DNA of 41,710 nt from a virus, in the IMG/VR virus record IMGVR_UViG_3300035193_000072, positions 1 to 41,710 of that record; one strand, written 5' to 3'. Below the pieces are notes generated by a model. The model saw only the letters and a program-made list of their open reading frames with translations, made no database searches and was not told the DNA's origin. The position numbers and the translations under genes were made by a program. Of the stretch, positions 4,460 through 30,271 are shown piece after piece (position 1 is the stretch's first letter; each line of letters opens with the position of its first letter).

Positions 4460-4882
4460 CTAAAAGCTACAACTACTGCTAGAACTGCTGGAGCTTCCTG
4501 TAGTTATGATGTAACTTCCACTTAATCCCATTTGTCCCTTATAATATCCACCATAAAAACATGTTAATAATATCTCAGTACCTAAATCGACTGGGACTTT
4601 AACTTCAAAATACCCTGTAATTGGATCAGATTCAATTGATTCATAAATTTCTAATCCATCTAATGAAGATAATATAATTTTACATCTTTTTTTTACTATT
4701 CTTCCATACCAATCTTTAATATAGCCCCATACTGAACTTGAAGAAATTATTTCTATGTCTAAAAAAACATCTTTTATTTTCTTAATTTCTATTCCTGAAT
4801 CTAAACAAATATCTAATTCATACTTCTGAACAGAACTTGATGAACTACTTGATGAACTTGAACATGACGAAGAACTGGACAT
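4460..4882 (-). CDS. Small beta-domain protein with poly-serine ends
   Basis: A 140-residue protein with an AGGAAT site before the ATG. Residues 2-17 are almost all serine, and the last dozen are again serine plus two cysteines. The central domain (VFLDIEIISSSSVWGYIKDW, then GTEILLTCFYGGYYKGQMG) is a clear paralogue of the middle domain of the next gene (FLDIEIESSSMIWGKTRDW, then STEVLLTCFNEGDYKGQYN). The serine tails look like linkers that join such domains in the larger protein, here left free. It is probably a tail or fibre module. Its cysteines could allow disulfide or metal cross-linking. Confidence 0.75.
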   Translation of the reverse strand: MSSSSSCSSSSSSSSSSVQKYELDICLDSGIEIKKIKDVFLDIEIISSSSVWGYIKDWYGRIVKKRCKIILSSLDGLEIYESIESDPITGYFEVKVPVDLGTEILLTCFYGGYYKGQMGLSGSYIITTGSSSSSSSSCSF

Positions 4883-4886
4883 ATTC

Positions 4887-6992
4887 CTATTCCTCGTAAA
4901 ATTCTATATTTGTTACACTATACGGTCCAGGATTTTTATATAAACTAAGAGACTTAATGTCATAACTTGTAAAGCTAATAACAGCTTCATCTAACGATTC
5001 ATATCCTGGATAATTACAAATATTAGCCCATCCTGTATCTATTATTTGAAGAGTTACATCTGGCACTCCTGTAATCGTTACTCTGACTTTAGATGGTCTG
5101 TACCCTGTAACCCAAGATCCATTAGGAATAAGAACTATTTGAGAATCATTAGTTCCTGCACTTTCCCAATGGTCACTGGACCATGCCCCGGTTGTTGCGG
5201 TCCATTCAGTATTATCAAAATGCTGAACCCAAACAGGAACCATGCTACTGCTTGAACTAGAAATACTCATACTTGATGAACTTCTTGAACTACTAGAGCT
5301 AGATCTACTTGAACTAGATGAACTTCTTGAACTACTAGATGAAGATAACGAAGAAGATGAGCTAGATGAAGAAGAACTTTTTGAAGAACTACTACTTGAA
5401 CTTCCTGTTGTATATATCAAACTTCCTGATAAATTATATTGGCCTTTATAATCTCCTTCATTGAAACAAGTCAGCAACACTTCTGTACTATTAGAGACAG
5501 GAACTCTAGTAAAAAATTCTCCTGATTCAGGATCTACTTGAGTAACTCCATATATTTCAGATCCATCTAAATCTGAAACGATAATGACAAATGGTTGCTT
5601 TATTAATCTTTTTTTCCAATCTCTTGTTTTCCCCCAAATCATACTAGATGATTCAATTTCTATATCTAAAAAAATATCTTGTCTATGTTTTATTTCAATA
5701 AAAGTATCTGTTCTTATTAATTTTCTTAGAATTTTTAATAATTCTACATCTAAAACAATATCTTCTTTAATATTTTTAGCTGAACTTGAACTACTGCTCG
5801 ATTCAGAAGAAGATGAAGAAGATCTTGAACTACTTGAGCTTGAAGAACTTGATAAACTTCTTGAAGAACTAGAAGAACTAGAACTTCTTGAAGAACTAGA
5901 AGAACTCGATGAACTCAAAGATGAACTAGAAGAACTAGAACTTCTTGATGAACTTGAAGATGAACTACTTAAACTTGAAGAGCTAGATGAACTTCTTGAT
6001 AAACTTGAAGAACTTGATGAACTTCTCGATAAACTTGAAGAACTAGAATTAGACATAGAACTAACAGATCTACTTGAAGAACTTGATGAGCTCCTTGAGC
6101 TACTTGATGAACTACTTGAAGAACTTGACAAGCTTGAAGAAGATGAACTACTGCTAGAGCTACTCTTAGAACTCGAAGATCTACTGCTAGAACTAGACAA
6201 ACTACTGCTCGAAGATCTTGAAGAAGAAGATGATGATGAGCTAGATGAACTACTACTAGATCTTGAAGAAGAAGATGATGATGAACTAGATGAACTGCTA
6301 CTAGATCTTGAAGAAGATGAAGAACTTGATGAACTACTGCTAGATGAACTGCTACTAGATCTTGAAGAAGAAGATGATGATGAACTAGATGAACTACTAC
6401 TAGATCTTGAAGAACTGCTACTAGATCTTGAAGAAGATGAAGATGATGAAGATCCACTGAAACTTAAAGATGAGCTTGAAGAACTAGATGAGCTTCTTGA
6501 AGAAGATGAACTAGATGAACTACTACTTGATCTTGATGATGAAGATGATGATGAACTTGAAGAAGAAGATCTTGAAGAACTTGAAGAGCTTCTTGATGAT
6601 GAACTTGAAGAACTAGATGAACTAGTTTCTTCATTTAGCTCAATAGCTGTCAAATTACATGGAGACCCATTAGCTGGAGTTAAAACTATTCTCCCAATTC
6701 CCTTACTTCCATCAAAACTATATTCTTGACCTGAAGTATAAGGATAAACTGTTCCTATTGGGTTCCCTTCTGAGTCTTCAATAGCAAGAGTATCTGCTGC
6801 AGAATAATTAGTATATGTTAATCTTATTTTAGTAAAATAATGATTTTCAGAATAATACCAAGACCCTATAGCATCTAATTGAAAATAACCTCCTCCTCCT
6901 AATTCCCAATGATCAGTATTCCAAGTTCCTGTATATGGATCAGAAGTTGGCTCCCAATAACTGTCACTAAAATAGGTTGAAGTCCAAGTCAT
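4887..6992 (-). CDS. Multi-domain poly-serine fibre-like protein
   Basis: A 701-residue protein whose ATG overlaps the previous stop as TAATG. Order: N-terminal beta domain (1-123, WTSTYFSDSYWEP, then WNTDHWELGGGGYFQLD); a serine tract of about 280 residues broken mainly by single Arg and Leu (124-404); a beta domain matching the gene at 4460-4882 (about 405-530); a second serine tract (about 530-583); and a C-terminal domain (584-701) that repeats the N-terminal theme (WTATTGAWSSDHWESAG, then NGSWVTGYRPSKVRV). The serine codons are mixed (TCA, TCT, AGT, AGC), which breaks up pure DNA repeats. It is probably a flexible tail fibre or adhesin with domains on unstructured stalks. No enzymatic motif is visible. 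Confidence 0.8.
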   Translation of the reverse strand: MTWTSTYFSDSYWEPTSDPYTGTWNTDHWELGGGGYFQLDAIGSWYYSENHYFTKIRLTYTNYSAADTLAIEDSEGNPIGTVYPYTSGQEYSFDGSKGIGRIVLTPANGSPCNLTAIELNEETSSSSSSSSSSRSSSSSSRSSSSSSSSSSSSRSSSSSSSSSSSRSSSSSSSSSLSFSGSSSSSSSSRSSSSSSRSSSSSSSSSSSSSSRSSSSSSSSSSSSSSSSSRSSSSSSSSSSSSSSRSSSSSSSSSSSSSSRSSSSSLSSSSSRSSSSKSSSSSSSSSSSLSSSSSSSSSSSRSSSSSSSRSVSSMSNSSSSSLSRSSSSSSSLSRSSSSSSSLSSSSSSSSRSSSSSSSSLSSSSSSSSSRSSSSSSSSRSLSSSSSSSSSRSSSSSSESSSSSSSAKNIKEDIVLDVELLKILRKLIRTDTFIEIKHRQDIFLDIEIESSSMIWGKTRDWKKRLIKQPFVIIVSDLDGSEIYGVTQVDPESGEFFTRVPVSNSTEVLLTCFNEGDYKGQYNLSGSLIYTTGSSSSSSSKSSSSSSSSSSLSSSSSSRSSSSSSRSSSSSSRSSSSMSISSSSSSMVPVWVQHFDNTEWTATTGAWSSDHWESAGTNDSQIVLIPNGSWVTGYRPSKVRVTITGVPDVTLQIIDTGWANICNYPGYESLDEAVISFTSYDIKSLSLYKNPGPYSVTNIEFYEE
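5245..5405 (-). repeat. Second poly-serine tract (about 54 codons)
   Basis: This is a shorter tract of the same Ser-rich composition, joining the middle and C-terminal domains of the protein at 4887-6992. It has the same interleaved serine codon use and occasional Arg, Lys, Leu and Met interruptions. Confidence 0.85.
5781..6623 (-). repeat. First poly-serine tract (about 280 codons)
   Basis: Nearly every codon encodes Ser, with isolated Arg, Leu, Lys, Met, Gly or Glu roughly every 5-15 residues. Synonymous codons are interleaved, so the DNA is a degenerate trinucleotide-scale repeat, not a perfect microsatellite. The opposite strand therefore reads as a long Glu/Leu/Asp ORF, which is an artefact. 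Confidence 0.9.
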
Positions 6993-11281: not shown

Positions 11282-14200
11282 TTAATCCAATTTAGTTAAT
11301 CGTTCTTTTTCAAGATCTCTTTTAAGCCTCTGAAGGACACTAATATCTCCTTGAACAGGGTAGCTTCTAACTGTTCCTCCTGAATCTAGCCTAATAGTAA
11401 AAGTCCCAATATTAGGAACTTCTGAACCTGTAGTCTCTAACATTAGATCTTCATTAGTCACTTCTCCTCCTGATTGAAACTTTTTAGCTCCCATAGCTTC
11501 AGATTCATAATAAGCTTGCATTCCTCTTTTAGACAAAATATAAGATCCTACAGGCAAAGAAGTATGAATATTATCAGTTCCTCCTGTACCATTAAATTGA
11601 CCAATTCCTCCAGGTATATGAGATACAGCTCTTCCGCCATTAAGAGTGTTTAATAGATTTAAATTTCCTTTTGTTTGCCCCGGAGGAACATATCCTTCTC
11701 CTGCAGAAACTCTTGCAGGAATAACTCCTCCATAAGCTCTTTTAATCACTCCTCCAGCATATAACTTAGCATTAGCTCCAGACACATTATTTGATCTAGC
11801 AATAGAACTTTCTAAGTTAGTTAAATTACTCATTAATGAAGATATTTCAGATTTTATTTCTTTAGCAAAGTCTTTAAATTTATTCTCCATTTTAGAAAGT
11901 AAATCTTCCCACTGATTCTTAAAAACCTCAGAAGGTCTATCAAAATCAATTTTAGGTTCAATAGGATATTGTTCTTTTATAGATTTAGTTATTTCAATCC
12001 ATCCTCTTTCAACAAGTTTAATTTGTTTAAGAATTTCATCTATTTCATTAACATTCTTTTCTCTAATTTCTTGTCCAAGCTTTTCCTGCTTATTGGCCAC
12101 TTCATCAATTCTTTTACTTATTTCTGAAGTCATTCCTCTGTAAGTAATTTCTATCGATTTCCTGTCATTTTCGGCTTGAAGAGCAGTAATTTGACCATTT
12201 TCCTGAAGAACATTAACTCTTTCAATCTCAGCTTTTTTCATTTCATTAACAAGAGACTTTTCTTCATTTAATTTACCAACTACTTTATCTAAAATTTCAA
12301 TTTGTCTTTGTTTTTCTGAAGTTGTTGCCTTTTCAGCAGAAGTTTCTTTTAATTTATCATTAATATATTTTTGCCCAACTTCTATTTGAGCTCTATAACT
12401 ATTAAGAATTTTCATATTTTTAAATTCTATATCTGAAAGAATATTTCTGACTAATAGCAAATTCCTTCTTTGAAGAGTTTCTTGTTCATTAAGTCTTTGC
12501 TGAGCTAGTGATAAATTATATCTTGATATAACAAGTTCTCTTTGTTTATTTTTGTATTCATCAGTTCCTCTCGCCAACAACTTCAATTCTTCTTCTATTT
12601 TTTTAACAGCTAATCCAGCATTTTCTTCAGATTGAGTGAATTGCTCTGTTATTTCCTTCATTTCTTTAACATTTCTTATTCCTTTGCCTACTTCTTTATT
12701 TCTTTCAACTAAAGCTCTATCTAATCTATTTTGAGCAATTATTTGTTCTTCTAAAGCTATTTTATATTCAGAATAAAGTTTTTTTCTGATTTCTGCATTT
12801 TTAGAATCTTTAATCCATGCCTCATTTGTTTTTTTCACAGCAACTTTTGTATTATCTAAAGCTTTATTTAAAGAAATAATTGTAGAATCATGTCGTTGAG
12901 TCTCTGAAGACATTCTTCCTAATGAAGAAGTTAAATAATTTATTTCGGTATTAAGCCCTTTAATTATATTTTTTTGACTATTAAAAAAATTATTTAATTT
13001 ATCATTAACTATTTTATCATTAGCTTCTCTTAGCTGACTAAGTTTATCTTTCATCTTATCTATAAGATTAATTACTTTATTATAAAATCCATCATAAATA
13101 TCTCTGGCTTTTTTTATTTTTTCTGGGCTTAATACTTCTTGAGTTTCTTGCAAGCTTTTATTTAGTTTATCATTTATAAGAGTTAATCTATCAGAAGTAG
13201 TAAGATCTTTTCTTTTAGAATCAACTAATTTGTCATATTTATCTTTATAATTTTGTAATCCAATAATAGCTCTTTCCCAAAAATCAATTTGTTTCTGTCT
13301 TTCTTTGGAAGCCTCTGCAGTGTATACTTCTCTATTTCTAGCTTCTATAAGTCTATCATAAGCTTCTTCTATTTTTTCAGAAGTAATCTGAACTATTTTC
13401 TGATAAGCAAGCATATCTTTTGAATCATTTGTAAATATAGTAGAAAAGGCCACATCTCTAGACATTTTACCTATTTCTTTTCTCCAATTTTGAAATGTTT
13501 CTTTGATTTCTTCAGTTCTTGCAATCATTTCATCAAAATTAATAATAGCAAGCTGTTCTTTTTGAAGTCTCAATTCTTCTTTTGTGGCTGCTATTAATAA
13601 TTTTTTATTTTCAGTCATATTTTTAATTTGGCTATTATTAAGGTTAAGAGCTATTTGTAATTTTGAATATGAAGAATTTATTTGGCTAAGAGTGCTATTT
13701 TCATCCTGAAGAACTCCTAGATTTGTTTCTAAAATAGAAACAATGCCTTCATGAGCTTTTCTTGTGTTTTCTAACTCTCTAGCATAAGATTCTGCGGAAT
13801 GTTTTGCTTCAGTAAGCCAATTATAGAAAAGAATTAATCCTTCAATAACAGCCACAAAAACTATAGATTTCCAAATCCTTCCTAGATAAGCAGCAGCTTT
13901 ACCAAAAGTGATAGTTTGAGCAGTAGCAGCAGCTTCAGCAGAACCTAGCCCTACCACTAAAGTAATTAATCTTCCAATGACTCCTCCTACCCATCCAAGA
14001 ATAGCTCCTGTTTTTGTTAATATAATAGAAAATCCTAAAGTAGAAGCTGCAACTCCTACCATCGTAACAATCCACCCTCCTGCTCCTCCTAATGTATTAT
14101 TTAATTCAGATATAGCCTGAGATGCTTTATTAAATAGTCCTATAAATAATCCAAAAGCTTTAACAAAAGGTACAAGCCCTTTTCTAAGAAGAGCTTCTAT

Positions 14201-16594
14201 ATTAGCATAAGCAATTGCAATCTGAGAGTTTAAGTCAGACAACCTTATATCTTTCATTGCTTCTGCTGATCCTTCAAGCCCATTATTTAGCCTTCCTATA
14301 GTGGCTTCAAGATCATTAACATTTTGAATCATAACATTAAATGCTTCAGCTCCTCTTAACCCCAATCTCTTAAAAATTATTCCAAGTTTTTCTGCACTCA
14401 TTTCTCCTGTAACAAATTGCTCATTTATTTGCCTTAAAATATTAAAAAAATCAATAGGCTTGCTAATATCTATTTCAATGTCAAAAGCCCTAGCAAATGC
14501 CCCTGCATCTTTTGTGATTTTAGACAAAATTACTCTCATTGCCCTTCCAGCCGTTCCTGCTTTAATAAGTCTATTATTTAAAAAAGCAAGAGTTCCTACC
14601 ATTTCTCCTAAAGTAAGATTAGCAGCTCTTCCAGACTGGATCATAAATTTTAATCCGTCTCTCATCTCCATCATTTCAACTTGATTATCTTTAAACGCTT
14701 TAACTAACAAATCATTAATATAAGTAAATTTTTCTGTAAGAGATGCTGACGTTATCAAGCTGTTATTCCACTCCTTACTTGTACTTGATAATGAAGTTAT
14801 GGCTCCATCAACAATAACAATTTGATCTTTAAAATTATTATATAATCCAGCTATTAATTTTGTTATGTCTCTGACCTCTGCCTCAGTGCCTATAATATTA
14901 GACAATGTAGAATTTAAAGCAGCCACAGATTCCTCTGCACTTAATCCAGCAGAACCTAGCTGATACAATATTTCTCCTAAGTCTTCAAAAGAAGCTCCTG
15001 TGGCTATTCTTGCAGAAACAATAGCTTTTTCATATTCTTTCCATATTTCTGAAGTAGAAGAAACTTCACTCCTAGCTGTTCTCATTGCTCTTGTTACAGC
15101 TTGCTGAACTTCAGCTACAGATTTAAAAGCTTCTTTAACTCTTTCAGTTACTCCAAATATTAACATAAATCCAGCCATCCATGCAGCTTGACTGGCTATC
15201 ATATCAGCAAAACCTGCGGCCTGTAATCTAAAAGCAGACCGTGTATCCTCTAACCCTTCTCTAGATAATTTCTGTTGCTGTCTATTAACCTGTTTTAGTT
15301 GTTGTTCATAAAAAGAAAGCTGTTCTGTTAATTGTTTCAATCTCAATTGTTTTTTCCAAAAAGCTTCTCCGCTCTGAATAACTAATCTTCCATTAATAGT
15401 TTCAATTTTTTGAAGCTTGATATATTCTCTAGTAAGTAATTCAATAATATTTCTTAATGAAGTGGATCTTTGAACAAGAATATTTTGAGAACCATTAAGT
15501 TTCTCATTTGCTGAAGCCAATATATTATCTTCTCTAATTAATTCTTTTAATGCTAAGTCTGTCTGCCTATATATAACATCAAGCCTTTCAAGAGCAGGAA
15601 TGCTTTCTCTTGTGGCCTGAGTTGACCTTAATATAGAATTAGCTAAATTATTTTGTATTCCTGAATATTTTTCTGTAATAGATATCGCTTGTTGTTCTAA
15701 GGAATTAAGCTCCTTAATAAACTGAGAAGACTTTCTGAAGGCTTCTCCTCCAACTTGTAATTTACTTCTAAGTAATAGCCAAGCTTCTCCAAGCCTTTGA
15801 GTCTCAGCTACCATCTTCTCATATAATACTGGAGTTCCTTGTAGCGCATTTAATCTTTGAAAATCTGATAAGGTCTGATTGACAAATTGTTTACTGTTTG
15901 TAACCATCTCCTTTACAGAAATAGCTTGCTGTTCTTCAAGAGTTCTAAATGCATCCTTAGCTCTTTCAGTTATAGGGCTTAACTTCTGAAAAGCTTTTTC
16001 AAAATTAGCAATCCAAGTCTCTGGCCTTAATTGCCCAGTCCCTCCAAAAGATGCTCCGAAAACTTTAGCCATAGCTACCATTTCTTCTCTGACCTTATTA
16101 TAATCTTTAACAAGCTTGTTTGCTTCCTTACTGGCAAAAGCTCCATGCCTCTTTTCTTCTCTTGTTAATCCTATAAGAGTTGTAGAAGTGGTCTCTATTT
16201 CTCCTCTTAAAGCTTGATATCTTTCTTCTAATTTTACTAATTGATTAATATGATCTTTAAGACCTACATCCTGGTATTTTATCTTGTCTAACTCTTCACG
16301 AACCGCTGCCAAACTAGCAGCCATTTTTTCAGTGATTCCACCAGCTCTATATTGAACTTTAGGCTTAACAAGATTTATAAGTTCAGCGTATGTTTTCCTT
16401 AATTCTTTTTGATAAACTTTTAAAGATTTGACATTTTGAAAATAGATAGGCTCTTGAGAAAGTTTACCCAATTGTTGAATATTTCTTACTTGACTCTCAA
16501 GAGCCTTTAATGCTGTTTTATATTCTTTTAATGATCTAAGATCTTCAGCTCTTTTCCTCAAACGAAGAATTAATTGTAATTCTCTTTCGTTCAT
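11282..16594 (-). CDS. Tail tape measure protein, TP901-type
   Basis: A 1770-residue protein. The ATG overlaps the stop of the preceding -1-frame ORF as ATGA and follows AAGGAG at eight bases. Residues 1-470 are long coiled coil. A TP901-type core lies at about 480-800 (VAEVQQAVTRAMRTARSE, then IATGASFEDLGEILYQLGSA, then LGEMVGTLAFLNNRLIKAGT). A hydrophobic Gly-rich stretch follows at about 835-925 (membrane-active in such proteins), then coiled coil to about 1600 and a Gly-rich C-terminus (GGVIPARVSAGEGYVPPGQT). At the usual 0.15 nm per residue this would set a tail of roughly 260 nm. It fixes tail length and is injected with DNA in known systems. Confidence 0.95.
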   Translation of the reverse strand: MNERELQLILRLRKRAEDLRSLKEYKTALKALESQVRNIQQLGKLSQEPIYFQNVKSLKVYQKELRKTYAELINLVKPKVQYRAGGITEKMAASLAAVREELDKIKYQDVGLKDHINQLVKLEERYQALRGEIETTSTTLIGLTREEKRHGAFASKEANKLVKDYNKVREEMVAMAKVFGASFGGTGQLRPETWIANFEKAFQKLSPITERAKDAFRTLEEQQAISVKEMVTNSKQFVNQTLSDFQRLNALQGTPVLYEKMVAETQRLGEAWLLLRSKLQVGGEAFRKSSQFIKELNSLEQQAISITEKYSGIQNNLANSILRSTQATRESIPALERLDVIYRQTDLALKELIREDNILASANEKLNGSQNILVQRSTSLRNIIELLTREYIKLQKIETINGRLVIQSGEAFWKKQLRLKQLTEQLSFYEQQLKQVNRQQQKLSREGLEDTRSAFRLQAAGFADMIASQAAWMAGFMLIFGVTERVKEAFKSVAEVQQAVTRAMRTARSEVSSTSEIWKEYEKAIVSARIATGASFEDLGEILYQLGSAGLSAEESVAALNSTLSNIIGTEAEVRDITKLIAGLYNNFKDQIVIVDGAITSLSSTSKEWNNSLITSASLTEKFTYINDLLVKAFKDNQVEMMEMRDGLKFMIQSGRAANLTLGEMVGTLAFLNNRLIKAGTAGRAMRVILSKITKDAGAFARAFDIEIDISKPIDFFNILRQINEQFVTGEMSAEKLGIIFKRLGLRGAEAFNVMIQNVNDLEATIGRLNNGLEGSAEAMKDIRLSDLNSQIAIAYANIEALLRKGLVPFVKAFGLFIGLFNKASQAISELNNTLGGAGGWIVTMVGVAASTLGFSIILTKTGAILGWVGGVIGRLITLVVGLGSAEAAATAQTITFGKAAAYLGRIWKSIVFVAVIEGLILFYNWLTEAKHSAESYARELENTRKAHEGIVSILETNLGVLQDENSTLSQINSSYSKLQIALNLNNSQIKNMTENKKLLIAATKEELRLQKEQLAIINFDEMIARTEEIKETFQNWRKEIGKMSRDVAFSTIFTNDSKDMLAYQKIVQITSEKIEEAYDRLIEARNREVYTAEASKERQKQIDFWERAIIGLQNYKDKYDKLVDSKRKDLTTSDRLTLINDKLNKSLQETQEVLSPEKIKKARDIYDGFYNKVINLIDKMKDKLSQLREANDKIVNDKLNNFFNSQKNIIKGLNTEINYLTSSLGRMSSETQRHDSTIISLNKALDNTKVAVKKTNEAWIKDSKNAEIRKKLYSEYKIALEEQIIAQNRLDRALVERNKEVGKGIRNVKEMKEITEQFTQSEENAGLAVKKIEEELKLLARGTDEYKNKQRELVISRYNLSLAQQRLNEQETLQRRNLLLVRNILSDIEFKNMKILNSYRAQIEVGQKYINDKLKETSAEKATTSEKQRQIEILDKVVGKLNEEKSLVNEMKKAEIERVNVLQENGQITALQAENDRKSIEITYRGMTSEISKRIDEVANKQEKLGQEIREKNVNEIDEILKQIKLVERGWIEITKSIKEQYPIEPKIDFDRPSEVFKNQWEDLLSKMENKFKDFAKEIKSEISSLMSNLTNLESSIARSNNVSGANAKLYAGGVIKRAYGGVIPARVSAGEGYVPPGQTKGNLNLLNTLNGGRAVSHIPGGIGQFNGTGGTDNIHTSLPVGSYILSKRGMQAYYESEAMGAKKFQSGGEVTNEDLMLETTGSEVPNIGTFTIRLDSGGTVRSYPVQGDISVLQRLKRDLEKERLTKLD

Positions 16595-17094
16595 TTGCTT
16601 TTCTCCTTAGGAGCAAGTTCTTCTTCAGACTTAGATTTTTCATATAAAACAAATTTTCTTACTTCAAAGAAGAGCTGACCCTCGTCAAGAAGGTTAGAAG
16701 CTGTCGGAAGGATTCCAACTTCTTCCGACCAAAAAACTAAATCTACCCAAAAATTAGCTCTATGAGAATAAAATGCATTAGGGCATCCTAAAACAGAAAA
16801 ATTTTTACCTAATCTAAATTCACCTTCAATTTTAACTGGAAGATCACACTTATCACAAATAAATTTATTTTTATCTTCATCAAAATGAATTTTATCATAA
16901 GTTAGATCTCCGCATTCTTTACACTGAGCAGGATTATTCCAATTGCAATTTCTTTTCCCTTTAAGTTTTTTATCTTCACAATAATCACAATTCCAAGTAG
17001 CAGGATTTTTGAGATATTTCTGGGCAACATTCCATCTTATTACAAGCTTCAGCTCTTCAATCAGTCCTGGTCTAAAGAACTTGTTCCTCTTATT
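16591..17094 (-). CDS. Start-less -1-frame ORF: frameshift extension of tail chaperone (gpT-like), zinc ribbon
   Basis: This 167-codon open frame runs from just after a TGA at 17095-17097 to the TGA overlapping the tape-measure start. It contains no ATG, GTG or TTG codon, so normal initiation is not possible. It lies in the -1 frame relative to the chaperone at 17061-17471 and overlaps its last ten or so codons, the G/GT layout known from lambda and many siphoviruses. Its residues 36-83 carry CxxC pairs at 36/39, 58/61 and 80/83 plus C50, a zinc-ribbon-like arrangement. A fusion of about 293 residues is predicted. Its acidic tail ends PKEKSK just before the tape measure. Confidence 0.75.
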   Translation of the reverse strand, partial: NKRNKFFRPGLIEELKLVIRWNVAQKYLKNPATWNCDYCEDKKLKGKRNCNWNNPAQCKECGDLTYDKIHFDEDKNKFICDKCDLPVKIEGEFRLGKNFSVLGCPNAFYSHRANFWVDLVFWSEEVGILPTASNLLDEGQLFFEVRKFVLYEKSKSEEELAPKEKSK

Positions 17095-17471
17095 TCATCA
17101 GCAAGTTCATCTCTTATTTTAGCAGGAACTTTATTTAAATTTCTTTCCATTATTTTATGCTTTTCAGTTCTATTTCTTGCTGAAGTGGTTTCTTCAAATT
17201 CAACTTCTGTTCCATCAGGATAAACAAAATTTATCCAGCCCACAAGACCTCTTTTAAGAATCTCAAGCTGTTGAGTTCCAGACTTCAATTGTTCTTCTCT
17301 TTTCTTCCCAAATCCTTTCGCTGAATAAATCATGTCACTTACTTCAGCAGCCTCACTGACATCAAGAGGTTTTAAAAGCCATTTAGTTTGATCCTCTTCA
17401 GGATCTTTTTCTTGTTCTTTAATTACATACTCATACGGGGTCCCTGGCTTGATTCCAAATATCTTTGCCAT
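17061..17471 (-). CDS. Tail assembly chaperone (gpG-like)
   Basis: A 136-residue protein. The ATG at 17471 follows GGAGG at eight bases and gives the typical opening MAKIFGIKPGTPYEYVIKEQ, then TKWLLKPLDVSEAAEVSDMI. This matches small chaperones that lie between the tube and tape-measure genes and hold the tape measure during assembly. The same frame is open upstream to an ATG at 17672, which would add a membrane segment (described separately). Its stop lies inside the -1-frame ORF, so a programmed frameshift is expected. In known systems only a minority of ribosomes shift. Confidence 0.75.
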   Translation of the reverse strand: MAKIFGIKPGTPYEYVIKEQEKDPEEDQTKWLLKPLDVSEAAEVSDMIYSAKGFGKKREEQLKSGTQQLEILKRGLVGWINFVYPDGTEVEFEETTSARNRTEKHKIMERNLNKVPAKIRDELADEIRGTSSLDQD

Positions 17472-17672
17472 TTCATTTTCCTCCACAAAAAAGTTAATAA
17501 TATTTATTATCCAACAAAGAGCCATTCTTTCACTGTTAAATCCTAATCTGAAAGAATAATCTCTAAAATCTTTATCTCTACAAAATTTATATGCAATATA
17601 GCTTATAGAAAATAATACACATATCGCAATAAAGGATGGTATCCAAAATATAAACATAAAAAACAAATACAT
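17472..17672 (-). other. In-frame upstream extension with a transmembrane segment
   Basis: Sixty-seven sense codons run in frame into the chaperone gene, beginning ATG at 17672 after an AGGTG at five to six bases. They encode MYLFFMFIFWIPSFIAICVL, continuing hydrophobic to about residue 28, then RDKDFRDYSFRLGF. Codon use (AGA, GAT, TTA, GGA) is like the neighbouring genes, and 68 stop-free codons would be unusual by chance in DNA this AT-rich. It may be a long, membrane-anchored chaperone form or a relic of a fused gene. The short form at 17471 has the better ribosome binding site. Confidence 0.45.
17602..17629 (-). promoter_or_regulatory. Candidate sigma70-like promoter before the tail chaperone
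   Basis: On the minus strand, TTGCGA and TATAAG are separated by 16 bases, downstream of the terminator at 17683-17717. It would restart transcription for the chaperone and tape-measure genes. AT-rich DNA gives many such matches, so this is only a candidate. Confidence 0.25.
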
Positions 17673-17682
17673 CTGAACACCT

Positions 17683-17717
17683 AAAAAAGAAAAGTAGGGA
17701 GGGAATACCCCTCCCTA
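17683..17717 (-). terminator. Strong rho-independent terminator after the major tail protein
   Basis: On the minus strand, TAGGGAGGG, a five-base loop (GTATT) and CCCTCCCTA form a perfect nine-pair, mostly G-C stem. It is followed directly by a T-rich tail (ACTTTTCTTTTTT). It lies 24 bases past the stop of the tube gene and is by far the most stable hairpin noticed in the window. It probably trims transcription between the highly expressed tube gene and the tape measure. Confidence 0.85.
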
Positions 17718-17741: not shown

Positions 17742-19733
17742 TCAAATATAAGCAGTATCTGAAACTATTGTTATTCTAAAATCAGGAACATCATTTGTAT
17801 CATCATATAGTGAAACAAAAGGCATATCTGTTTGAATGATACCTTCATCAGAAATAGTAGGAGTTTCTCCATTATACTCAATATTAGGAAGCCTAAGAGA
17901 CAGACTATACTGAGAAGCACTATCTCCAAGAACACTGTCTGTGACATATTCACTATGAGTAAATGCTATTACAAGATTTGAATTTGTCCCATTTATAAAT
18001 CTTCGATACAAATCAAGATTATCAAATTCAACAGAGAGTGTTCCTTCTACAGAACGTCTTTGTTCTGGAAGTTTTGCCCTCTGCCTACTTCCAAGATGGT
18101 ATTTATCTCCATAAAGATTATTATTTAAAGTTGAAGAAAATCCCATTATAGGCTGATCTACTCCATCTATAGTAAGAGATCCTTCAAATCCTGAAAATGG
18201 ATCAAGAGAAGAATAGGAAGAAGACGCTGCACTTCTTATAGTCTTGAATGACCAGATATCTCCTGCCTGAAGAGCTGATGCGTCAGGGAAAAATATTGTA
18301 AATCCTGAATCAACATTAGCTCCTGTTCTTACTTCTGTAGGATTAGTGGCCGAAGTAGTGGCTGTATTCCCATAAGATCCATCATTCTTTTTAAATTCAA
18401 GAGTTGCAGTTCCAGGAACTCCTCCTGTAGCTACTCTGACATAAAAAGTGTCTGGATCTCCTTCATCTGACCCTATATAATCCCCCCATATAATAGGAAC
18501 TGCCGGAGAATCTGCAAGAGTAAAAGGAAATTCACTAAATGTCGAACCAGTTATGTCTACAGCAGAAGCTGTTTTTAGATATATTGTTAAATCTTGCTGG
18601 CCAGCATAATCCATCATTTCGCAGTCAAGGAAACTCTGATCATCAAGATAATCTACTAATCCTCCAAGTTTATCCACATTATAAACAATGCCTGTTTCTG
18701 GATCTACAAGAGGACTTGTAAGATTTAAAACTATATCTTCTGAAGTCCCATCAATTGCTACTGTCAAATTCTTATTTGTAGCATCTATAGTAAGAGTTGC
18801 AGTTGATTGCTCTCCAGTATACCTTAATTTAAAAGCATCTCTCTCGTTTCCTGTATTTCCTGAATTAGCAGAAGGATCTCCAGCAGTAGAACCTCCACTT
18901 CCCATTAGATTAAATGTCCCAGTAAGAATTTCTCCAGGAGAAGCATTTATCTCCATAGTATTTATCTTCATTCCTTTATACAGAAATGAAGCGACATCTC
19001 TTCCAATTTCAACAGAAAGTCCAGGAGGCAAAGAAGAAGCTGCATCTATAACATGTTGATAGACTCCCCAACTAGTTCCTACTGTCCACATCCTCTTACC
19101 ATAAGACCCAGTTTTCATGAGATCTACATTAGCAGTTTCTTCCAATATATTACTATTAGCTGTACCTAGATTATAGTCACTAGCATGCATTGTAGTCTGA
19201 TACGTTCCCTGCGTCAATTGGTAAGCACTCCAGGCTGCAAGGTATGGGTTTGCATTAATGGCATCCATGACTTCTTGGAGAGTATCATATGACCCATTTG
19301 TTAAATCAAGACTTAAATCATCTCCTGATTCAACAGTAAAAGCAACTTCTAAAGCTGTAGCTTCTCCTGCTGTATGTGTTATTGTTAAGACTGCTCCTGT
19401 TTCAGCAGGATTCGTACATTCTATAACAAAAGCAGTATCGAGCCTTGTAGTCTGGACAGAGCCAAGAGCATGCTTGAACCAAGTTTCGAACCCGCTCGGT
19501 CCTAATTCTGCCCCTACGTCTCCTCCACAAGCCTCAACCCCTCCAATTCTCTTATGAACAGCTCTGTCAGGCCGTAAGGAATTGGACACCAGAGATCCTA
19601 TTTCTGATATTACAGCTTCATTCAAGATCTCTACAAAATTTGTAGGAGTACTCAAAGACTTCCCCCAGATTCCTTCTTCAGCAAATCCAAGCTGGCCTCT
19701 GGCTCCAACAGCCGGTCCTAAATTTAAGCTCAT
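17742..19733 (-). CDS. Major tail (tube) protein, Phage_tube_2-like
   Basis: A 663-residue protein with AAGGAGGATCAAGAG before the ATG. Its N-terminus (GPAVGARGQLGFAEEGIWGK, then LRPDRAVHKRIGGVEACGGD, then ELGPSGFETWFKHALGS) is the hallmark of the Phage_tube_2 group. Further tube-core segments lie at about 200-290 (MKINTMEINASPGEILTGTF) and at the end (QRRSVEGTLSVEFDNLDLYR). Two long insertions, about 100-190 and 300-515, look like surface beta domains (ATLEFKKNDGSYGNTATTSA). It is larger than many tube proteins, and the inserts probably decorate the tube. GC is higher than in the neighbouring genes, as is its expression signal (strong site, strong terminator). Confidence 0.85.
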   Translation of the reverse strand: MSLNLGPAVGARGQLGFAEEGIWGKSLSTPTNFVEILNEAVISEIGSLVSNSLRPDRAVHKRIGGVEACGGDVGAELGPSGFETWFKHALGSVQTTRLDTAFVIECTNPAETGAVLTITHTAGEATALEVAFTVESGDDLSLDLTNGSYDTLQEVMDAINANPYLAAWSAYQLTQGTYQTTMHASDYNLGTANSNILEETANVDLMKTGSYGKRMWTVGTSWGVYQHVIDAASSLPPGLSVEIGRDVASFLYKGMKINTMEINASPGEILTGTFNLMGSGGSTAGDPSANSGNTGNERDAFKLRYTGEQSTATLTIDATNKNLTVAIDGTSEDIVLNLTSPLVDPETGIVYNVDKLGGLVDYLDDQSFLDCEMMDYAGQQDLTIYLKTASAVDITGSTFSEFPFTLADSPAVPIIWGDYIGSDEGDPDTFYVRVATGGVPGTATLEFKKNDGSYGNTATTSATNPTEVRTGANVDSGFTIFFPDASALQAGDIWSFKTIRSAASSSYSSLDPFSGFEGSLTIDGVDQPIMGFSSTLNNNLYGDKYHLGSRQRAKLPEQRRSVEGTLSVEFDNLDLYRRFINGTNSNLVIAFTHSEYVTDSVLGDSASQYSLSLRLPNIEYNGETPTISDEGIIQTDMPFVSLYDDTNDVPDFRITIVSDTAYI

Positions 19734-27391: not shown

Positions 27392-30271
27392 CTAATCCAA
27401 TATTGCTTTAATCCAGTGTTCAGGAACGAATTTTTCTTTTGCTATAATATGAGCATCTGCCCCCATTCTCATTCTTAAGTCTGGATCTATTAATTTTTCC
27501 ATGGCTATTATATGATCATCAATAGTTCCACACAAAAACCCTCCTGCCTTTACCTTACCAGCCAATCCACTCAATCTATCTTTAGCTCCTGAGTGATTAT
27601 CAGCTATAACTGGCAATCCTGAAGCCATTGCTTCCATTATCACTTTTGGCCCCATGTCTAAATATCCTTTAGGCAAATAATACCAGAAAACATTTCCTAA
27701 TCTAAGAAAATCCCAAACAGCAGGTTGATTTCTCCTATGCTCCCAAACTATTCCTCCATTTTGATGACTAGTTTTTTTATCTAAAAAAGACGGAGAAGGC
27801 ATTAAGTGTAATTGAGCAGAATTAAATCTATTTTGAATTTCTTTAACTATTTCATTAAAATTTCTAGGGTATTTAGTATCTCCTTGACTACTATGCCTTA
27901 TTAATTTTAGATTTCCTGAATAATCTCTATTTTCAAATATTTCAAAAAATTTAGAAAGATCTACAGGAGGAGGAAGAATGTAAGTAGAGGAAGTAGGTAC
28001 TCTTCCTTTAAACTCTGTTCTGAGGCTATTATTTAAGAAAATATAAGCATTCCAACCTTTAGTCCATCCAATGTTGCCTATATCTCCTAATCTATAATTA
28101 ACAGCCATAACCTTTTTTGAAGCCTTCGACGCATCAAATAAGCTTGCTAATGCGTCTAGTTTAAAATCCCACACCCAATCATTAGTATATAACAACATGA
28201 CATCACATGGCTCTTTAATAATATCTAAATCATCATAACATTTAATATCCTTATGCCCCTTTTTTCTAAATGTTCCAGAAGGCCCTTTTGGAGAAACATA
28301 CTCTACGGTCCACCCTAATTCTAAAACCCTATTCATGATCCAAGTTGTAGAACTTTCAGCTCCTCCTTCTCCTCTTCCGTTAAATACCATTCTGAAAATC
28401 TTTTTAGGCTTTCCAGTTATTTCTTTTATTGTATTTTTAAATTCTTTGGAAAAGTCATTTCCTTCATTTTTTACAGATTTTATTCCAAAAATTCTTTTAA
28501 AAGGATCATCTAATTTTTCATCTTCTTTATTAACAAATTTAAGATCTTTATACTGCCATAATCTACATCTATGTCCTCCATCAGCTATTTTTATAAATTT
28601 ATTTAACAAATATTTAGCTTGCCATTTTTCTTCAGCTTTTCTTCCAGCATCATGAATTATAACATAAGCTCCTAATTCTGAAGAAAGTCTTATAGAATGC
28701 TCTCTATTTTCTCCTCCAAAAGGGCCATCCACAAAAACAAGATCAAATCCATCATTTATTAATTTTTCTTTAAGAAAATTTTCATATGTTCCATCCCATT
28801 TAATTATTTCAACGTTATCTCCCATCTGAGATTTAATATGATTGATACTTTCTTTTTGATCATCAACAGTTACTATTTTTTCAACTAAATCAGAAATCAA
28901 TAAAGTTGATAATCCTGAACCAAATTCAAGAACTGTTTCGATATTATTCTTTTTAATAAAATCTTTAATAAATAACCAATCCCTTTCAGTAATACTACTT
29001 CCTCCCCACTCATATCCAAATTTCTTAGGATCTTCTTTAGCTCTTATTTCAATAGGCTGAGGAGCTTCAGATTTAACCGAAATAGGATTAGGAAGTATTG
29101 GAATTCTTGGAACATCTCTAACCAATCTTCCTCCTCTGTAATAAGAATTAATCGCTGAAACTATCTGTTCTGGATCTATTATACCAACACATTTAGGATA
29201 TCTTATTATTTCACTATCAATATTATTAGTAATTATACTTTCACAAGTTTTTTCAAGATCACAATGCCAACAAGCTGTTGGAAATCCTTTTTTATCAACA
29301 GTGCAAGGCAAACACCCATCAGTAGAAAGATATCTATGACCAGGATAGTGCGTGAATCTAGAAGGCTCTCTTGCTCCAGCTACTACCACGCAAGGCAAAT
29401 TAAAAGCAGCGGCCAGATGCATATGAAAACTCACCAATCCAATTGACCCTTCTGCTCTATAAAATAGTTTTATTAAATCTCTTATTCCTGTTTTAGAATC
29501 TTGAGTTTTTCCAAGAAAATCTACAACATTTTCACCTTGCAATTTTTGATGAGAATGCTTGCCTCCAACTTGACCTATTTGAACAAATTTAATTTTTGGC
29601 AACAAATTAACAACTTTCTGCCACCTATAAAAAGGGTAAGTTTTAGCAGTCCAATCTCCTTTCTCTCCAGCATTTATTATCCAATATGGAGAATCTACTA
29701 GAGGAGGTTTATTAATTTCTTCTTTGGCCATATATATATCAGGGCGAATTGGGCCTTGAGGAATATTTATCCCTAATTTATCTTCAATACTTATTCTAAA
29801 AGCATTAGCAAAATGCCTGTCATCTCTATTACTAGCATTTGTAAGATATCCGGGACCTATTTTAATTATTTCAGCATTTTTTTCATTTAAAGATCTATCA
29901 AGAAGAGGATTATTGTCCCAAATATGCATAGCAGTTGTTTGAACATTTATTGGACAATCAGGAAAAGCTTTTTTAAAATCCCTTACTCCTGCAGACATCA
30001 TCAATATATCCCCAATAGCCATTCTGTTACTAAAAACTATTGGTCTTAACTCAAATGGGTCTTTAAGTTTGCCTATCTGCAAATTTTTTAATGAAATCAA
30101 ATCATCAATTATTTCTTCTTCTTCTTTTTCATTAAAAGTAGTATGATGATGAATATGTCCATCATGATATTTTATTGAAATTGAAACATCCTTAGCCGTT
30201 TTTTCTCTAACTTGAGGAATTTTATTAATTTTTTTAGCTTGTTCTTTTAAAATGTTAATTAAATCTGACAT
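27392..30271 (-). CDS. Three-domain GT9-methyltransferase-GT4 fusion
   Basis: A 959-residue protein with AAAGGAGACAATAA before the ATG. Residues about 76-375 look like a GT9 (heptosyltransferase-type) enzyme: SNRMAIGDILMMSAGVRDFK at the start, INAGEKGDWTAKTYPFYRW, then GSIGLVSFHMHLAAAFNLPC. About 415-575 is a class I SAM methyltransferase-like domain (VLEFGSGLSTLLI at 447-459, IVTVDD, LVFVDGPFGG at 511-520). About 625-959 is a GT4-type domain (NGRGEGGAESSTTWIMN, then VIMEAMASGLPVIADNHSGA). Five cysteines (320, 323, 334, 337, 343) cluster at the GT9 end. It likely builds and methylates a glycan chain, on either the virion or the host surface. Confidence 0.8.
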   Translation of the reverse strand: MSDLINILKEQAKKINKIPQVREKTAKDVSISIKYHDGHIHHHTTFNEKEEEEIIDDLISLKNLQIGKLKDPFELRPIVFSNRMAIGDILMMSAGVRDFKKAFPDCPINVQTTAMHIWDNNPLLDRSLNEKNAEIIKIGPGYLTNASNRDDRHFANAFRISIEDKLGINIPQGPIRPDIYMAKEEINKPPLVDSPYWIINAGEKGDWTAKTYPFYRWQKVVNLLPKIKFVQIGQVGGKHSHQKLQGENVVDFLGKTQDSKTGIRDLIKLFYRAEGSIGLVSFHMHLAAAFNLPCVVVAGAREPSRFTHYPGHRYLSTDGCLPCTVDKKGFPTACWHCDLEKTCESIITNNIDSEIIRYPKCVGIIDPEQIVSAINSYYRGGRLVRDVPRIPILPNPISVKSEAPQPIEIRAKEDPKKFGYEWGGSSITERDWLFIKDFIKKNNIETVLEFGSGLSTLLISDLVEKIVTVDDQKESINHIKSQMGDNVEIIKWDGTYENFLKEKLINDGFDLVFVDGPFGGENREHSIRLSSELGAYVIIHDAGRKAEEKWQAKYLLNKFIKIADGGHRCRLWQYKDLKFVNKEDEKLDDPFKRIFGIKSVKNEGNDFSKEFKNTIKEITGKPKKIFRMVFNGRGEGGAESSTTWIMNRVLELGWTVEYVSPKGPSGTFRKKGHKDIKCYDDLDIIKEPCDVMLLYTNDWVWDFKLDALASLFDASKASKKVMAVNYRLGDIGNIGWTKGWNAYIFLNNSLRTEFKGRVPTSSTYILPPPVDLSKFFEIFENRDYSGNLKLIRHSSQGDTKYPRNFNEIVKEIQNRFNSAQLHLMPSPSFLDKKTSHQNGGIVWEHRRNQPAVWDFLRLGNVFWYYLPKGYLDMGPKVIMEAMASGLPVIADNHSGAKDRLSGLAGKVKAGGFLCGTIDDHIIAMEKLIDPDLRMRMGADAHIIAKEKFVPEHWIKAILD

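Follow-up and report, generated by a model that had tools for sequence, protein, structure and literature searches.

Frameshifting of tail chaperones is widespread, and to our knowledge their T parts are little understood. A review (PMC5009743) describes the -1 shift as conserved in long-tailed phages and gives the two parts of the lambda chaperone different partners, the tape measure for G and the major tail protein for T. In phage tail chaperones, GGGGGAA is a slip motif called "fivetwo", in which GAA re-pairs as GGA via G:U; not every annotated chaperone shift has a heptamer, and 22 genomes are given as having no motif at all in the overlap (PRFect, PMC10885494). Here we describe a chaperone locus in a 41.7-kb IMG/VR virus record (IMGVR_UViG_3300035193_000072; its whole length is called the window), which also encodes a portal, a large terminase and a major capsid protein. 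Judged from its sequence, the locus is very likely a tail-chaperone -1 frameshift of the G/GT type, producing a G-T fusion with a T part that has predicted zinc sites. The two frames are as follows.

17064-17471, minus strand: G, a tail assembly chaperone of 136 amino acids (aa), with its ATG at 17471 and its stop TGA at 17063-17061, between the tail tube and tape measure genes
16591-17094, minus strand: T, a start-less -1 frame of 167 codons plus stop, the expected C-terminal part of a 293-aa G-T fusion

The locus resembles lambda gpG/gpGT (PMC5009743) in its order, tail tube - G - T - tape measure, and in that T lies in the -1 frame, lacks its own start and shares bases with the end of G. 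It is unlike lambda in two respects: its T is an unrelated cysteine-rich domain without a detectable match, and the junction in the window's clade is GGAC_TGA rather than a tandem-slip heptamer.

The T frame (+2, which is -1 relative to G) opens past a TGA at 17097-17095 and its last codon ends at 16594, so that its stop (TGA, 16593-16591) shares bases with the tape-measure ATG (16594) as ATGA. The window copy contains no ATG, GTG or TTG. Dinucleotide shuffling of the region, repeated 2000 times, never gave an open run of at least 166 codons (longest run: median 44, maximum 127), and none of 492 stretches of T's length elsewhere in the window's genes is free of start codons; because neither comparison produced a match, the long start-less T frame is real and not a product of chance. 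Every fact in the original description of this frame in an earlier note (167 codons, no start codon, -1 to the chaperone, overlapping its end and running into the tape-measure ATG) holds. The total absence of start codons is peculiar to the window's T, and its homologues contain internal ATG, GTG or TTG codons.

Relatives were reached via the major capsid protein, which identified 36 related virus contigs, and later searches added a few; with T or G as the lone query, no relatives were found in viral contigs or phage records. The set used here comprises 23 distinct loci that have both G and T, namely the window, 21 IMG/VR relatives and one contig from a metagenome-assembled genome (MAG). These fall into clade 1, which is that of the window (17 loci, including L088), its sister clade 2 (five loci: L028, L030, L032, L037 and L048), and the divergent L035. 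The L088 contig, which shares these tail genes and this junction, sits in a MAG labelled as a Thermoproteota archaeon; the host assignment is by binning alone and uncertain. In L023, G is divided over two frames at 5659-6204, by decay or sequencing error, and T is intact. The capsid relatives Tedan, Shrooms and Mulvp2 have neither G nor T, and the alignment of T has no stretch conserved enough for a pattern search. Small open reading frames between the chaperone and tape measure of DLP4, PSASB_03, HHTV-1 and ALK, which have a similar tail protein, were considered as T relatives and dropped after a profile search gave nothing.

Throughout the set, T is offset by -1 from G (23/23), and the two frames overlap by at least 10 nt where G ends. 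None of the 23 loci has an ATG, GTG or TTG upstream of or within the conserved GLIEE-type block of T. The proportion of nonsynonymous differences (pN) is below that of synonymous differences (pS) for T in each of the 120 clade-1 pairs and for G in each of 91 pairs, and the closest pairs give T a ratio of the corresponding rates (dN/dS) of 0.10-0.27; T is thus under purifying selection. The alignment of homologous loci that had been proposed as a check bears out the frame offset, and neither of the results that had been named as refuting the fusion turned up: no relative has an indel joining the frames, and no homologue has a T start of its own.

In the mechanism that we favor, for the chaperone pair of a long-tailed virus, most ribosomes would make the 136-aa G protein and terminate at the UGA at 17063-17061, while a minority would move back by one base where G ends and read through T. 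A slip at the conserved junction gives a computed fusion of 293 aa, the size of about 293 residues that was originally proposed. The elements that may take part in the shift are listed here.

17061-17067, minus strand: GGACTGA, the putative -1 shift site, at which GAC would re-pair as GGA while the UGA stop awaits decoding; the same in 17/17 clade-1 loci
17004-17060, minus strand: region in which folding gives a strong stem-loop in 12/17 clade-1 members, which begins 8 nt past GGAC; the window copy does not form it (z +0.34)
17083-17090, minus strand: Shine-Dalgarno-like AGAGGAAC, ending 15 nt before GGAC and ranking within the top 1.4% of G's 8-mers; a possible stimulator in the window

The location of the site is indicated by comparison of the clades. 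Clade 2 has G_GGG_GAA exactly at the frame junction (5/5 loci), and in L030, T opens just one codon ahead of this heptamer; the junction of L035 carries A_AAA_AAT and T_TTA_AAG. A recognizable -1 slip heptamer is thus present in clade 2 and L035, and absent from the clade-1 junction, which at the same alignment position reads C_NNG_GAC_TGA (NNG being CAG, TCG or TTG). The clade-2 heptamer is identical to the "fivetwo" site of the SEA-PHAGES chaperones (PRFect, PMC10885494), with the same G:U re-pairing of GAA as GGA, whereas clade 1 differs from those sites in having GAC for GAA and no five-G run. Conservation is highest from -9 to +2 of the junction, the Asp codon before the stop is always GAC in clade 1, and the stop after it is always TGA. 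In L002, L006 and L059, a stop closes T immediately upstream of the common site, so that a shift common to the clade must lie within GAC NNG GAC TGA. C_NNG_GAC was considered as a tandem-slip heptamer and dropped, as the P-site tRNAs would not re-pair. Since the variable NNG codon cannot re-pair, a single-tRNA slip is likely, in which the Asp tRNA on GAC would re-pair with GGA (forming G:C and G:U pairs, with the wobble position mismatched) while decoding of the UGA is slow.

The stem-loop lies at the same distance, 8 nt, from the 7-nt site in both clades, and its register in clade 1 is fixed, with 76.2% of cells paired compared with 37.5-41.7% for slid registers. Its z-scores range between -2 and -9 in the 12 clade-1 members, the strongest stems being those of L006 (-32.5 kcal/mol, z -9.3), L002 (z -7.1), and L053 and L021 (z -6.4 for both). 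Part of the pairing may derive from the conserved protein sequence. In the window, AGAGGA, a Shine-Dalgarno-like sequence 15 nt ahead of GGAC, is a possible alternative stimulator, its spacing and role being putative.

Several observations weigh against the favored reading. The site is not a standard heptamer, and the P-site codons before GAC (CAG, TCG and TTG) re-pair poorly. The stem is missing in the window (z +0.34), in L015 and L023, and largely in L022, and in the covariation test, the compensatory changes in the clade-1 stem were no more frequent than in shuffles, for which reason we claim no covariation support. Finally, the family match of G is weak (see below). The layout had been called classic, and this description fits in part, the clade-1 site not being of the X_XXY_YYZ type and the stem-loop of most relatives being absent in the window. 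The G/GT-type -1 fusion itself is upheld by the common offset in the 23 loci, the purifying selection on T and the known slip site in the sister clade.

The alternative that survives best, though still unlikely, is that the window's own shift occurs earlier than GGAC_TGA, at T_TCT_TTA (17077-17071), with the AGAGGA a few bases upstream as its stimulator. T is already open there in the window (from 17094), UCU could tolerably re-pair as UUC and UUA as UUU, and a Shine-Dalgarno-like sequence does lie upstream. The heptamer, however, is not conserved (L023 has C_TCT_TTA, and the others have neither), and the stop just upstream of the common site in L002, L006 and L059 requires that a family-wide site be located downstream of it.

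A somewhat less probable alternative is termination-reinitiation, in which T would be a separate protein, not fused to G, starting from the CTG that overlaps the UGA of G (CTGA). This CTG is present in 17/17 clade-1 loci and start-stop overlaps are common in phages, but CTG is a poor start codon. A silent change of GAC to GAT would yield TTG, and it is seen in 0/17 loci, even though GAT is preferred elsewhere in G (95 GAT vs 26 GAC); the invariance of GAC despite this preference argues against T having its own start. In addition, the bases 5' of the CTG (GAC NNG) are also conserved and would not be needed for reinitiation, and clade 2 and L035 have neither CTG nor another start at this position and carry standard slip sites instead. 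The last alternative, that a single frame was split by gene decay or by an indel arising in assembly or sequencing, has a precedent in the broken G of one relative (L023) and is negligible, since 23 distinct loci, on contigs independent of each other, have the same offset and purifying selection acts on both frames.

Returning to the favored G-T fusion, the T part has eight cysteines, at frame residues 36, 39, 50, 58, 61, 80, 83 and 104. These are the three CxxC pairs that were noticed originally (36/39, 58/61 and 80/83), together with two conserved residues that had gone unmentioned, C50 and C104.

16783-16989, minus strand: cysteine region of T, with predicted zinc site A formed by C36, C39, C50 and C104, and predicted site B by C58, C61, C80 and C83 (frame residues)

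Six of the cysteines are invariant or nearly so. C36, C39 and C50 are invariant, C104 is kept in every row that reaches its position, and C58, C80 and C83, with C or H at 61, occur in every row except L035. The partition into two predicted sites follows from two exceptions: L035 lacks C58, C61, C80 and C83 as one block and retains the other four, and C61 is replaced by His in all clade-2 members. On this pattern, T very probably holds two zinc ions. The earlier proposal of a zinc-stabilized domain is therefore supported as to its type, by the conserved cysteines, the C to H exchange and the joint loss of one set, and is to be amended as to its composition, which is eight cysteines in two predicted sites and not a single set of four.

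In an AlphaFold model (mean predicted local distance difference test score, pLDDT, 88.7), T consists of helices, a beta-rich cysteine region and two long C-terminal helices; the fusion would accordingly end in a domain with N-terminal helices, a beta-rich region bearing the two predicted zinc sites, and two long helices at its end. Foldseek found no significant match to this fold in the PDB or BFVD, and the sequence has no significant match in Pfam or PHROGs; since all four were negative, T is a new family. It resembles zinc ribbons (TFIIB-type and others in Pfam) in its CxxC...CxxC knuckles and in scattered sub-threshold zinc-ribbon matches in Pfam and PHROGs, with many such models matched by the cysteine region. 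It is unlike them in that no model reaches its cut-off (the best Pfam zinc-ribbon E-values are ~1e-3, below the curated cut-off, and the family differs between members) and in that T has two interleaved predicted sites in a helical domain with no fold match. The earlier note knew of no described chaperone of this form, and our literature search, which covered open-licence papers, likewise found no report of a zinc-containing T part.

The same note had supposed that T binds the tape measure, which is at odds with lambda, where this is the role of G and the partner of T is the major tail protein (PMC5009743). If the locus works as in lambda, G would coat the tape measure, and a few G-T molecules would recruit the tail tube protein via T. 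The tail tube protein should thus be the partner of T, and is a better guess than the tape measure, because lambda T binds the major tail protein.

As to the family of G itself, two weak leads agree on an XkdN/YqbN-type chaperone. Pfam Phage_TAC_5 matches G in one of 16 members (E 0.053), and the best Foldseek match is YqbN (PDB 3klu; E 0.43, prob 0.38). These are the best leads in both sequence and fold, and E-values of 0.05 and 0.43 are insufficient for membership of G in that family. The mechanical open reading frame containing the chaperone starts further upstream than had been given, at 17672, and the additional segment is listed here with the start signal of the short form.

17472-17672, minus strand: a 67-aa stretch upstream of G and in frame with it, containing a transmembrane segment; it has its own ATG at 17672 preceded by AGGTG, has no stop before G, and is conserved in most loci
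17480-17484, minus strand: GGAGG, the Shine-Dalgarno sequence of the short G form

In most loci a profile of the upstream segment finds a match that shares the frame of G, and 131 of 136 pairs have a lower pN than pS. An in-frame transmembrane extension of ~65-80 aa with its own start occurs in L002, L006, L011, L012, L015, L016, L021, L022, L024, L027, L028, L037, L051, L059, L061 and L088. It is missing in L030, L032, L048 and L035, that of L053 has one stop, and in L023 the G frame is broken. A strong Shine-Dalgarno sequence is found at G's own ATG in nearly all loci. The simplest reading seems to be that the chaperone has two in-frame starts, giving a membrane-anchored and a soluble form; a membrane-linked tail chaperone was not reported in the open-licence papers searched. 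As a more tentative extension, which we consider possible and not the likelier outcome, one chaperone gene may give up to four proteins, by combining the two in-frame starts with an optional two-zinc extension that is reached via a single Asp tRNA -1 slip at GGAC_UGA and not via a tandem heptamer.

The surrounding features are as follows.

17742-19733, minus strand: major tail (tube) protein gene (Pfam Phage_tube_2, 1.5e-32; PHROG 290, 3.5e-39)
17695-17717, minus strand: terminator-like hairpin separating the tail tube gene and the chaperone (five in the region vs 0.5 expected)
16603-16608, minus strand: AAGGAG, the ribosome binding site for the tape-measure ATG at 16594, located within T
11282-16594, minus strand: tape measure protein gene, 1770 aa (PhageMin_Tail, 2.5e-11; PHROG 167, 1e-10)

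The tail tube protein (17742-19733, minus strand) is unusually long at 663 aa, with one tail-tube profile on its N-terminal half and another tail family on its C-terminal part, which suggests inserted domains. Near the tail end of the structural module, at 4460-6992 (minus strand), there are two adjacent genes with very long serine runs, one of them encoding a protein of 701 aa. A 959-aa protein encoded inside the structural cluster (27392-30271, minus strand) resembles, by eye only, a chain of glycosyltransferase- and methyltransferase-like parts.

The G/GT trick is well known, and what was not previously known is a T part with a predicted zinc domain, apparently joined through a GGAC_TGA site. 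Having no start codon, T will be overlooked altogether by annotation pipelines. A metal-site T would offer a tractable handle on the process, in that cysteine mutants should block tail initiation and leave G intact. The two sister lineages, one with a standard G_GGG_GAA and the other with an invariant, non-heptameric GGAC_UGA, both with a stem at equal distance, amount to a natural experiment on the evolution of shift sites. If the four-protein reading is true, it would tie tail initiation to both the membrane and a metal, and phage recoding would gain a stop-coupled -1 shift site that relies on a single tRNA.

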